A stretch of 64,000 nucleotides of DNA from Snodgrassella alvi. Lineage in GTDB: Bacteria; Pseudomonadota; Gammaproteobacteria; Burkholderiales; Neisseriaceae. The stretch's first letter is position 1, and the number at the start of each line of letters is the position of its first letter. The notes beneath the pieces were generated by a model, which was not told the DNA's origin, searched no databases, and saw only the letters and a program-made list of their open reading frames with translations. Positions 60,735 through 63,207 of this stretch are shown here, one piece after another. The stretch lies in assembly GCF_002777855.1 (NCBI RefSeq), contig NZ_MEIK01000035.1, forward strand, positions 1 to 64,000, read 5' to 3'. The position numbers were made by a program, and so were the translations under genes.

Positions 60735-61307
60735 ATGCCATGGAATTTTCCGATATTGCTCACTTGGTTGCGTATCCTTATCATTCCTGTATTCACCCTC
60801 TTATTTTATTTGCCTACAGACTGGATCAGCGACCGTCAGATTATCAACTGGCTAGCGGCAGGCTTTTTTGCAGCCGCGGCCATTACTGACTGGTTTGATG
60901 GATATCTGGCACGCCGATGGGGGCAAACATCTAATTTTGGTGCTTTCCTTGACCCTGTTGCCGATAAACTAATGGTAGCTGTAGCCTTGATATTACTAGT
61001 AGCAACCGGCCGCACTTACGCTATATTTGCCATGATAATTATCGGGCGGGAAATCACCATTTCTGCTTTGCGTGAATGGATGGCTCAACTGGGTAAACGC
61101 AATAGTGTGGCAGTAGCCAAACTAGGCAAATTCAAAACCGCGGCTCAAATGGGTGCCATATTTATACTATTGATGACATCTCCCCCATTAGCAGAACCCA
61201 ATCTGCTATGGAAAATTGGAAATATTCTGATGCTTGTAGCCTGCATTCTGACCATCTGGTCCATGCTGTATTATTTAAAAATGGCTACTAAAGAATTTAA
61301 ATCTTAA
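60735..61307 (+). CDS. pgsA: CDP-diacylglycerol-glycerol-3-phosphate 3-phosphatidyltransferase
   Basis: First committed step of phosphatidylglycerol synthesis in the inner membrane. The 190-residue protein has about five transmembrane helices and the complete CDP-alcohol phosphotransferase motif DWFDGYLARRWGQTSNFGAFLDPVADK. It stands directly before the tRNA cluster, which matches the E. coli order pgsA-glyW-cysT-leuZ. Confidence 0.97.
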   Translation: MPWNFPILLTWLRILIIPVFTLLFYLPTDWISDRQIINWLAAGFFAAAAITDWFDGYLARRWGQTSNFGAFLDPVADKLMVAVALILLVATGRTYAIFAMIIIGREITISALREWMAQLGKRNSVAVAKLGKFKTAAQMGAIFILLMTSPPLAEPNLLWKIGNILMLVACILTIWSMLYYLKMATKEFKS

Positions 61308-61355
61308 AAAATCATAGTGAAAGCAAAAAAAAACAAGCAAGCTTCACTAATAGCC

Positions 61356-61383
61356 TTGACACAGATTTTTTCATCGATATAAT
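61356..61383 (+). promoter_or_regulatory. Sigma-70 promoter of the Gly-Cys-Leu tRNA cluster
   Basis: -35 TTGACA (61356-61361) and -10 TATAAT (61378-61383) with 16 bp between, about 31 bp before the first tRNA-Gly. Both hexamers are perfect. Confidence 0.9.
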
Positions 61384-61414
61384 GTTGCTTCTTCATTCAG
61401 TACGAATGAGCAAC

Positions 61415-61490
61415 GCGGGAATAGCTCAGTTGGTAGAGCGCAACCTTGCCAAGGTTGAGGTCGCGAGTTCGAGACTCGTTTCCCGCTCCA
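61415..61490 (+). tRNA. tRNA-Gly(GCC), copy 1
   Basis: A 76-nt cloverleaf with encoded CCA; acceptor GCGGGAA/TTCCCGC, anticodon loop CTTGCCAA with anticodon GCC, T loop TTCGAGA. It is the first of three identical copies. Confidence 0.97.
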
Positions 61491-61522
61491 AAAAAACATG
61501 CTCACATGTATAAAGTGAAAAT

Positions 61523-61598
61523 GCGGGAATAGCTCAGTTGGTAGAGCGCAACCTTGCCAAGGTTGAGGTCGCGAGTTCGAGACTCGTTTCCCGCTCCA
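61523..61598 (+). tRNA. tRNA-Gly(GCC), copy 2
   Basis: Same 76-nt sequence as copy 1. The spacer before it and the one before copy 3 are alike except for one A, showing a tandem duplication of a 107-108 bp unit. Confidence 0.97.
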
Positions 61599-61629
61599 AA
61601 AAACATGCTCACATGTATAAAGTGAAAAT

Positions 61630-61705
61630 GCGGGAATAGCTCAGTTGGTAGAGCGCAACCTTGCCAAGGTTGAGGTCGCGAGTTCGAGACTCGTTTCCCG
61701 CTCCA
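61630..61705 (+). tRNA. tRNA-Gly(GCC), copy 3
   Basis: Same 76-nt sequence as copies 1 and 2. The spacer after it differs, which places the right edge of the tandem array here. Confidence 0.97.
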
Positions 61706-61757
61706 GATTTTGATTTAGTAGTTGCTCTACCCGATTGAGTAAATATTTAAGATTTAA

Positions 61758-61831
61758 GGCGGGATGGCAGAGTGGTCATGCAGCGGACTGCAAATCCGTG
61801 TACGCCGGTTCGATTCCGACTCCCGCCTCCA
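61758..61831 (+). tRNA. tRNA-Cys(GCA)
   Basis: A 74-nt tRNA with encoded CCA: acceptor GGCGGGA/TCCCGCC, anticodon stem GCGGA/TCCGT with loop CTGCAAA (anticodon GCA), T loop TTCGATT, discriminator T73. The T stem has a C50-A64 mismatch. It is the ordinary copy of the two Cys-type tRNAs here. Confidence 0.95.
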
Positions 61832-61851
61832 GATAGTTTGAATAGTTTTAT

Positions 61852-61926
61852 GGCGGGGTGGCAGAGTGACTATGCCACAGTGTGCAAAGCTGTGTAGGCC
61901 GGTTTAAATCCGTGCCCCCGCCTCCA
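61852..61926 (+). tRNA. Divergent tRNA-Cys-like gene (GCA)
   Basis: A 75-nt sequence 20 bp after tRNA-Cys, with encoded CCA, discriminator T73 and anticodon GCA kept. Many positions differ from its neighbour, but pairing is preserved. The acceptor is GGCGGGG/CCCCGCC (7 of 7) and the anticodon stem ACAGT/GCTGT is new but complete. The T stem GCCGG pairs with CCG-GC if one U is bulged. The D loop has GA instead of GG while the T loop has TTT instead of TTC, so the 19-56 contact changes from G-C to A-U. G48 replaces C48. It could be a functional variant tRNA, a tRNA-like RNA with another role or, less likely, a pseudogene. Confidence 0.75.
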
Positions 61927-61965
61927 ACATAAAAGTTAATACATCTTTTGTATTAATTTCCATCC

Positions 61966-62056
61966 GCCCGGGTGGTGAAATAGGTAGACACAACGGACTT
62001 AAAATCCGTCGGCTCTTAAAACGGCCGTGCCGGTTCGATTCCGGCTCCGGGCACCA
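61966..62056 (+). tRNA. tRNA-Leu(UAA)
   Basis: A 91-nt class II tRNA with encoded CCA: acceptor GCCCGGG/TCCGGGC, anticodon stem ACGGA/TCCGT with loop CTTAAAA (anticodon UAA), long variable arm, T loop TTCGATT. Last gene of the cluster. Confidence 0.96.
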
Positions 62057-63207
62057 TTCTATACTCTCATATACTCATAAATGTACAAACTTGTGCAAAT
62101 GAGTTTGAACTTTAGATATTTAAAGTTGTTCAAGTTTTTAATCCTATTTATAGCAGAATATAACATCTACACCAAGAATTGGTACACAGCTAATTTTTAG
62201 ATTATCTTCGTACAGTCTTATTCAGTTACCGATTTGAGTGTGATATCAGCAGTTTTCTATGCAAACTTGGGAAAACAAACTAGAACTGAACTGTGATAAT
62301 CAATCCACATAATATTGCATCCAATGGTAAACCTTTAATCAGTTCAGATATAGCTTGAGTTTTTTTCTAATATTGCTCAATCAAAGTACTCGAACTAAAA
62401 CTTGAGTTTTAAGCACTACAAGTATCAATCTTAATATACGTATAACTTACTTTATTTTAAATTTTAATAAGCCGATGTGAGAGCTTAAGAAAAAGCCAAA
62501 TCCTTGCATTATGCTCTATTGATTCTTCAGGCTAAAAAACCAAAAAATAATAAATTATACAAATAACACGTATTTCTAAGAATGTCAGAAGCTTATCAAT
62601 CACAAATTAGTCAAAAACACATGCATTGTGAAAGTTGAAATATTTATTCCAAACATTCTAACCTGAAAATAGTAATAAACATATAAGCTTTCGACATCAA
62701 GCTTGTTACAGTATAACAACTTAATAAAAATTAAATAAATTCATCAATATAAAAATACATAATCAATAATATTAAAATAATTTAATTCTGTTTATGCGTA
62801 CTTTGTCTCTATATCATCTGGATTAATATTTAATAATTCAAGCATTTTGAGTCTAGCAGCTAATTTTAGAGCTTTTTATCTCACAAAAGTTACTACCTGA
62901 GGGAAAGAAATAACTTAAAGAACTACCCATGCAAAATATGCAGCAATTAAGTCTTAATTCAGCCTTGATATTATGATGTGATAAGAAAACGTTATTGATC
63001 AAAATGAGCTGGCGTACCAAATTAATACATTTTGATGATTGATAATATAGCACTTTTATGTGAGTGCCTATTAATCTATATTTATATCAATTTTTATTAA
63101 ATTTGCAGAAATTAATATATTTTTATAAATAAAAATATTTCAATACAGAAATCTGAATTTTTACTCATTAATTAAAATCTATTTTACAGTAGTTAGGCTT
63201 GAGATTA
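62057..63207. other. About 1.15 kb gene-free AT-rich region
   Basis: Between tRNA-Leu and the ubiquinone hydroxylase gene. No reading frame with protein-like composition was found on either strand, and I see no terminator directly after tRNA-Leu. The DNA is AT-rich with scattered short inverted repeats that could arise by chance. Downstream of a tRNA cluster this could be a former insertion site, but no integrase or repeat supports that here. Confidence 0.4.

Follow-up and report, generated by a model that had tools for sequence, protein, structure and literature searches.

Introduction

In S. aureus, as described in the parts of PMC4052509 available to us, non-proteinogenic tRNA-Gly have lost the GG at positions 18-19 and are changed in pairs 49-65 and 51-63, the T-stem pairs by which EF-Tu binding is tuned (PMC4052509 and PMC9976931, both seen in part). 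Isoacceptors of this tRNA-Gly with weak EF-Tu pairs are thought to supply the cell wall (same part of PMC4052509). Among cysteine tRNAs, the non-canonical selC* is accompanied by a second SelB or CysRS in some delta-proteobacteria, according to the sections of PMC7609411 consulted. Cysteine identity rests on U73 and the GCA anticodon, with G15-G48 as a strong determinant in E. coli (PMC9976931, in part). Second copies of tRNA-Cys can also be dead: the portion of PMC9897764 seen reports that in P. fluorescens SBW25 a low-scoring second tRNA-Cys flanks a genomic island and is missing among the mature tRNAs. In a survey of 4-bp anticodon stems that covered 42,109 bacterial genomes, other stem lengths were placed under "other" and predicted pseudogenes were dropped, as stated in the available part of PMC13092985, so that anticodon arms of the type described below may not have shown there.

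Here we describe Cys2, an RNA gene found in a window of 64,000 nucleotides of Snodgrassella alvi (the whole stretch analysed, positions 1 to 64,000 of contig NZ_MEIK01000035.1), and show that this gene is genuine and has been passed on vertically within Neisseriaceae. An earlier note, made from the window alone, had proposed from changes occurring in pairs that this sequence is under selection and may be a specialised tRNA-Cys or a tRNA-like RNA with another job.

Results

Cys2 lies in a conserved tRNA cluster

In the Snodgrassella window the order of the cluster is pgsA, three tRNA-Gly, tRNA-Cys, Cys2 and tRNA-Leu. Its features, with the evidence in brackets, are as follows:

60735..61307, + strand, pgsA-like gene upstream of the cluster (ORF)
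61356..61383, + strand, promoter-like TTGACA-16-TATAAT upstream of the tRNA cluster, 12/12 consensus matches (motif scan)
61415..61705, + strand, three tRNA-Gly (GCC) at 61415-61490, 61523-61598 and 61630-61705 (ARAGORN)
61758..61831, + strand, ordinary tRNA-Cys (GCA), the comparison neighbour (ARAGORN; Rfam, 58.9 bits)
61852..61926, + strand, Cys2, non-canonical tRNA-Cys-like RNA gene of 75 nt, encoded CCA included (sequence, covariance model R1)
61852..61858, + strand, 5' strand of the Cys2 acceptor stem, GGCGGGG; partner strand 61916-61922 (sequence)
61869, + strand, Cys2 position 19, A where ordinary tRNAs have G (sequence)
61877..61893, + strand, Cys2 anticodon arm, 5-bp stem closed by U31.G39, loop GUGCAAA, anticodon GCA at 61884-61886 (sequence)
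61897, + strand, Cys2 G48, opposite G15 at 61866 (sequence)
61913, + strand, extra T-stem base of Cys2 on the 3' strand, between pairs 51-63 and 50-64 (sequence)
61923..61926, + strand, Cys2 discriminator U73 and encoded CCA (sequence)
61966..62056, + strand, tRNA-Leu (UAA), downstream end of the cluster (ARAGORN)

We take the ORF at 60735..61307 to be pgsA; a relative is present in 62 of 76 cluster loci (tblastn, individual positions unchecked), in the other orientation in one of them (L030). At a looser 9-of-12 threshold, one promoter-like site was found near the cluster versus 2.1 expected in shuffles, and the search for terminator-like sites in 61250-62250 gave none, with 0.9 expected in shuffles. 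Cys2 is probably transcribed and processed together with the Gly-Cys-Leu tRNA cluster. The three tRNA-Gly copies (61415-61705) have almost identical spacers and look like a recent tandem amplification; a YrlA match spanning them, under the YrlA cut-off, looks like a chance resemblance to tRNA parts. Downstream of tRNA-Leu, 62057-63200 is an A+T-rich stretch of about 1.1 kb with one listed ORF of at least 60 residues (66 residues).

Anatomy of Cys2 in the window and across the family

Rereading of the sequence bore out the structural description in the earlier note. The coordinates 61852-61926 are right and include the encoded CCA; the acceptor has G7-C66 where the neighbour has A7-T66; the anticodon stem forms five pairs (ACAGU/GCUGU), the fifth being U31.G39; G32 stands at 61882; the anticodon GCA (61884-61886) and U73 (61923) are kept, as they are in all 42 distinct forms described below; and G15 (61866) faces G48 (61897). 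The T stem (GCCGG/CCG(U)GC) is fully paired once the U at 61913 is counted as extra, where the neighbour has C50-A64. The window's ordinary tRNA-Cys has G15-C48. Its C50-A64 T-stem mismatch (gene at 61758-61831) is seen too in most of the related tRNA-Cys listed.

Across the family, the acceptor stem consists of standard pairs throughout in 42/42 distinct forms. Invariant in all 42 are U33-G34-C35-A36-A37, U73, the encoded CCA, G15, G18 and U54-U55, and G48 is found in 41. None of the 42 has G19. Every form carries the extra base between T-stem pairs 51-63 and 50-64 (C in 29, U in 9, A in 4), and it is retained although pair 51-63 went from C-G to U-A in two forms. The variable region counts 4 nt in all 42 forms, together with seven acceptor and five T-stem pairs. 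The anticodon arm has a 7-bp stem and a 6-base loop in 33/42; the nine others (Snodgrassella, genome G014 and genus g9) have 5 bp closed by U31.G39 and a 7-base loop. Thus the loss of G19, the extra T-stem base and an unusual anticodon arm are common to the family, and the 7-bp stem with its 6-base loop is the most unusual feature of Cys2, one that is not visible from the window alone.

The earlier note had laid its emphasis on the contact of A19 (61869) with U56 (61905). This pair is real in the window, but the emphasis was misplaced. Positions 19-56 are U-A in 20 forms, U-C in 10, A-U in 7, U-U in 4 and U-G in one, so that with U-G counted as a pair they are paired in only 28/42; the remaining 14 are U-C or U-U. 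The pair is therefore not kept family-wide, and a maintained 19-56 pair was rejected as the key feature. The bases of the G18-U55 elbow contact are present in 42/42 forms and G19-C56 in none. As for the paired changes in general, they are present, but the alignment across species shows them better than the comparison with the neighbouring tRNA-Cys from which they had first been read.

Detection by tRNA finders and models

The covariance-model scan that the earlier note had suggested was run: with the Rfam tRNA model, the window's Cys2 scored 22.1 bits (cut-off 29) versus 58.9 for the adjoining tRNA-Cys. ARAGORN called none of the 65 Cys2 copies, the window's included. The Rfam tRNA cut-off was passed by one of the six Cys2 loci scored, the short form L020, with 30.6 bits. 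The long forms L022 (20.1 bits) and L024 (18.8 bits) fell under it, the long form L021 had no Rfam tRNA match, and the short form L014 had tRNA-Sec as best family, with 26.1 bits against that family's cut-off of 47. These last four results come from narrow scans; the multi-locus scan gave no tRNA for the long forms, yet it also overlooked an ordinary-looking tRNA at L145, which scores 51.1 alone. With the covariance model R1, Cys2 was the best match of the window (98.8 bits, the window copy being one of the 20 training sequences). Single-sequence folding, which is weak evidence, gave z -1.83 for the window's Cys2 and -0.71 for the neighbouring tRNA-Cys, and some single-sequence minimum-energy folds are not cloverleaves.

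Distribution and descent in Neisseriaceae

For the search of 83 family genomes we used a covariance model trained on 20 related sequences, one of them from the window. It found Cys2 in 63 genomes at 86.8 bits or more, with 65 copies and 42 distinct sequences; ordinary tRNA-Cys reached 71 bits at most in the same search. The carriers span 9 of the 12 family genera sampled, and the idea that Cys2 is a copy private to the window genome was rejected accordingly. The earlier note had named loss or free decay in close relatives as what would refute its reading; this is not the case, all 14 Snodgrassella genomes, including that of the window, carrying Cys2. Named carriers include at least N. gonorrhoeae, N. 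sicca, N. dentiae, N. polysaccharea, N. wadsworthii, Bergeriella and Conchiformibius, a list that is a lower bound, the contigs scanned showing no accession styled as a complete-genome record. Two genomes of genus g10 hold two tandem copies each (L126 in G065 and L131 in G084).

An ordinary tRNA-Cys match lies close to Cys2 in all 63 carrier genomes, and the decoding of cysteine codons therefore does not need Cys2. Nine genomes have ordinary tRNA-Cys only: G074, G100, G101 (g10), G017, G026 (g6), G016, G031, G104, G025 (g5), the contig of G025 stopping 39 bases past tRNA-Cys. Eleven others gave no covariance match at all (G023, G024, G030, G032, G035, G034, G089, G091, G092, G103 and G105), and since no tRNA-Cys was matched in them either, their lack of Cys2 is uninformative; in the assemblies of G023, G024, G030, G032 and G035, tRNA-Cys was not found even by a more permissive search. 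In a PgsA tree of 48 sequences, of which 36 come with Cys2, 5 come without it and 7 belong to genomes outside the family, the branching agrees with vertical descent, and the three Neisseria species without Cys2 group together; the tree was built from a short protein, has many weak forks and leaves out genus g5.

Conservation and covariation

Among 13 Snodgrassella, tRNA-Cys has a mean pairwise identity of 0.989 and Cys2 one of 0.973, compared with 0.656 and 0.565 in the flanking spacers. The corresponding values for 41 copies of genus g10 were 0.935, 0.930, 0.429 and 0.414, two of these copies being the second members of tandem pairs, so that the first member falls within their upstream "spacer". 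One of the 65 copies was left out of the comparison, its neighbour not having been found by pattern (it was seen by other searches). Cys2 identity thus stays near that of tRNA-Cys while the spacers drift, which indicates a constraint on Cys2 about as tight as that on a working tRNA.

In the 33 distinct long forms, aligned by MAFFT without structure, 99.6% of cells are paired, and 98.7% in the anticodon helix, with slid controls pairing at 38-62%. All seven pairs of the long-form anticodon stem show double-sided changes, and the covariation score was 0.194 vs 0.111, a level reached by 0/500 shuffles. Further pair types showed no excess in the long forms (15 vs 14.9 in shuffles; 312/500 shuffles). 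Conservation in 63/83 genomes and covariation together support that Cys2 is under selection, as the earlier note had suspected.

tRNA-Cys without G19 outside the family

In a sample of 399 genomes of the order, 12 matched a pattern for tRNA-Cys without G19, eight of them in the family, where the pattern failed to find G071, one of nine known carriers. Among the 387 order genomes outside the family, the four matches comprise three tRNA genes (G041, G185, G218) and one that is not (G157). When 369 genomes of the class were scanned with a pattern describing the anticodon and T arm of Cys2, the window's genome was the sole match.

Six betaproteobacterial metagenome genomes, three of which are the order-pattern tRNA matches just named, hold a standalone tRNA-Cys without G19 that has normal arms and a 6-base D loop and is called by ARAGORN (loci L077, L079/L146, L081/L156, L082/L158, L086/L152 and L110/L149). 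Five of the six also have ordinary tRNA-Cys; in the sixth, G112, it was not found. No conserved neighbour gene of these variants was evident by eye. They may be distant relatives of Cys2 or parallel cases. On 38 stretches of the contig scan ARAGORN gave no tRNA in two (L078, L107). Two viral contigs also carry tRNA-Cys with normal arms and no G19, one with A19-U56 and one with U19-A56 (L185:8176-8249, + strand, and L187:7150-7224, - strand). The 19-56 swap by itself is therefore probably compatible with decoding and, given the viral and the six betaproteobacterial tRNA-Cys that are otherwise ordinary, loss of G19 alone is not proof of an escape from it. Both viral genes sit in large tRNA arrays, and in L187 a tRNA with anticodon CUA is labelled Pyl by ARAGORN. 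A tRNA-Cys with A19-U56 also occurs in two MAGs (L093/L145 and L105/L150, one titled Nitrospira), each with at least one further tRNA-Cys.

CysRS and candidate consumers

PF01406 (CysRS) matched in 82/83 family genomes. Among the matches listed, no family genome has two strong ones, and no dedicated second CysRS for Cys2 was seen within that scope; G089, G092 and G103, all incomplete, have no strong match. The extra PF01406 matches listed, at about 28-33 bits and in reading frames mostly longer than 900 residues, are presumably other class I synthetases. Outside the family, two strong matches to the CysRS family, of 449.6 and 305.3 bits, occur in G043 (L226, L242).

The CysRS loop that follows HENE, taken between FPHHENE(I/L)AQS and YW(L/I/M)HNGF, was compared in loci L177-L180, L194-L213 and L214-L241. 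In the 17 genomes with Cys2 that were read it counts 17-26 residues and is often rich in Cys/His; outside the family it has 10-14 residues in 17/21, the other four being unreadable with the motif. In four genomes each, genus g5 has 12 residues (no Cys2 in the three testable) and genus g6 has 17 (no Cys2 in the two testable). The loop is of 22 residues in the three Neisseria species without Cys2, and of 22-25 in three family genomes whose tRNA locus is missing. The enlarged loop of Neisseriaceae CysRS could reflect co-adaptation with Cys2 or simple ancestry; because it is also found in Cys2-less Neisseria and g6, shared ancestry may explain it.

Consumers were searched in 20 chosen genomes, 12 with Cys2 and 8 without. 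FemAB (PF02388) was found in 1/20, FemAB_like (PF04339) in 2/20 and Acetyltransf_6 (PF13480) in 2/20, none of them tracking Cys2, and Leu/Phe transferase (PF03588) in 19/20, its sole absence being in a Cys2-bearing genome, so that it does not track Cys2 either. With the first three nearly absent and the last near-universal, no consumer is in sight among these 20 genomes. In G100 the Leu/Phe transferase match is in two pieces (G100:C1:122578-123098).

Discussion

We favor the reading, with a probability of roughly 45%, that Cys2 is a Neisseriaceae-specific tRNA-Cys which is charged by CysRS, largely withheld from ordinary decoding, and serves an off-ribosome use. CysRS would charge Cys2 through the GCA anticodon, U73 and G15-G48, and such charging is most likely, as predicted from these sequence elements. 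What departs from the canon appears to concern translation: the elbow contact G19-C56, the part of the T stem on which the tuning of EF-Tu binding depends and, for the majority of forms, the shape of the anticodon arm. Cys2 might therefore escape ordinary decoding, having no G19 and an extra base in the EF-Tu-tuning segment, and in most genera the 7-bp stem with its 6-base loop would misplace the anticodon relative to the CCA end on the ribosome. Cys-Cys2 could then feed some off-ribosome use of cysteine, as the EF-Tu-weak tRNA-Gly of S. aureus serves the cell wall; it is by this analogy that Cys2 is a putative cysteine-charged tRNA kept from ordinary decoding. The enlarged CysRS loop of the Cys2-bearing genomes speaks for this reading, its presence in genomes without Cys2 against it. 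Also against it, the anticodon arm of Snodgrassella Cys2 is nearly canonical, the ordinary tRNA-Cys itself bears the C50-A64 mismatch in its T stem, and an anticodon stem longer by 2 bp could harm recognition by CysRS too. The same holds for the candidate consumers that do not track Cys2, the otherwise normal tRNA-Cys that lack G19 and the dead second copy of SBW25. Of the two options left by the earlier note, a tRNA-like RNA with another job or a specialised tRNA-Cys, the second is still the best reading, its charging and use being predictions.

A fuller and somewhat doubtful version holds that Neisseriaceae, including N. gonorrhoeae and the bee symbiont Snodgrassella, possess a dedicated Cys-tRNA whose cloverleaf is of a new type, with 7 bp in the anticodon stem, six bases in its loop and an extra T-stem base on the 3' side, and that this Cys-tRNA feeds an off-ribosome cysteine-transfer pathway, with the enlarged HENE-side loop of CysRS serving both tRNAs.

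It is possible, if unlikely, that Cys2 is instead an auxiliary elongator tRNA-Cys, charged and used by the ribosome, perhaps slowly, under stress, at recoding sites, or as an isoacceptor resistant to anticodon nucleases. Codon reading would explain why the UGCAA of the anticodon loop is invariant in 42/42 forms; the 9/42 short forms combine a 7-base loop with a 5-bp stem (a 17-nt anticodon arm in Snodgrassella), and the short form L020 clears the Rfam tRNA cut-off. Variants without G19 and with normal arms exist in the two viral contigs, and in five of six betaproteobacterial MAGs such variants stand alongside an ordinary tRNA-Cys. However, the 7-bp stem and 6-base loop of 33/42 forms would have no place in the standard geometry of decoding, two long forms scored 20.1 and 18.8 bits against the Rfam cut-off of 29 and a third was unmatched, every Cys2 genome already has an ordinary tRNA-Cys, and three related Neisseria species do without Cys2.

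Likewise unlikely, in our estimate, is an uncharged tRNA-like regulator or decoy (of an RNase, a toxin, a modification enzyme or an sRNA) that would use the tRNA fold for processing and stability and the UGCAA loop for binding. The 7-bp stem with its [G/A/C]UGCAA loop does resemble a recognition hairpin, and there are precedents: the counterpart operon of E. coli, glyW-cysT-leuZ, yields 3'ETS-leuZ, which pairs with RyhB (according to part of PMC6191717), and tRNAOther of B. cereus is reported as a pseudo-tRNA within a regulatory RNA (PMC3399842, in part). Against this, U73, CCA and GCA in 42/42 forms and G15-G48 in 41/42 amount to more cysteine identity than a decoy needs. Finally, a pseudogene or attachment-site remnant of tRNA-Cys, which the 22.1 bits of Cys2 (under the Rfam cut-off of 29), its being overlooked by ARAGORN, its absence from some lineages and the dead copy of SBW25 (PMC9897764, in part) might suggest, was rejected as very unlikely in view of an identity near that of a working tRNA beside drifting spacers, compensatory change in all seven anticodon-stem pairs, 99.6% of cells paired with no decay of pairing, and the same place beside tRNA-Cys across the family.

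Whether or not Cys2 is a charged tRNA-Cys withheld from decoding, a conserved RNA gene that ARAGORN overlooks is present in most of the 83 family genomes searched, and its conservation points to an undescribed job for a tRNA. Cys2 separates, in nature, cysteine identity from decoding geometry. If charged, it predicts that this family, whose members include commensals, symbionts and pathogens, has a consumer of cysteine-tRNA. If uncharged, it would be a regulator in the shape of a tRNA, encoded in an operon whose counterpart in E. coli is already the source of a regulatory RNA. A literature search at the level of titles and abstract openings found no published description of Cys2, and the searched parts of PMC4810233, PMC5424206 and PMC8762117 do not mention it. 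Within the literature searched, part of it seen as excerpts, the 7-bp/6-base anticodon arm is a cloverleaf type for which we met no counterpart.

Compared with an ordinary bacterial tRNA-Cys (GCA), Cys2 shares the acceptor, D arm, anticodon, U73 and CCA, but differs in the loss of G19, the extra T-stem base, G48 and the altered anticodon arm. In the portion of its description seen, the second copy in P. fluorescens SBW25 is linked to a genomic island, whereas Cys2 is not. The tRNAOther of B. cereus is, like Cys2, an extra tRNA-like RNA, said not to serve translation (PMC3399842, in part); it flanks a pathogenicity island and forms part of a larger transcript, while Cys2 stands in a tRNA cluster conserved across the family. 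With the non-proteinogenic tRNA-Gly of S. aureus, as presented in the sections of PMC4052509 available, Cys2 has in common that it is an extra isoacceptor altered at the 18-19 GG and in the EF-Tu-tuning part of the T stem. It carries the identity of cysteine rather than glycine, has a T-stem base inserted where the tRNA-Gly has pairs changed, is altered at 19 only with G18 kept, and in the majority of its distinct forms extends the anticodon stem to 7 bp. Moreover, the tRNA-Gly are substrates of FemXAB, whereas FemAB was found in only 1/20 genomes examined here.

On the part of PMC7609411 consulted, selC* is the nearest named non-canonical tRNA-Cys that we found. Like Cys2, it combines GCA (or UCA) and U73 with a lengthened anticodon stem and a T-stem base that stays unpaired. 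Its acceptor and T-stem pairs number 8/4, its variable arm is long, and the bulged A at 51a belongs to the 5' strand, in contrast to the 7 acceptor and 5 T-stem pairs of Cys2, its 4-nt variable region and its extra C, U or A on the 3' strand, and the second CysRS that accompanies selC* in some genomes has no strong equivalent in the family among the matches listed. Cys2 thus departs from selC* in its stem lengths, its variable arm and the strand of its bulge.
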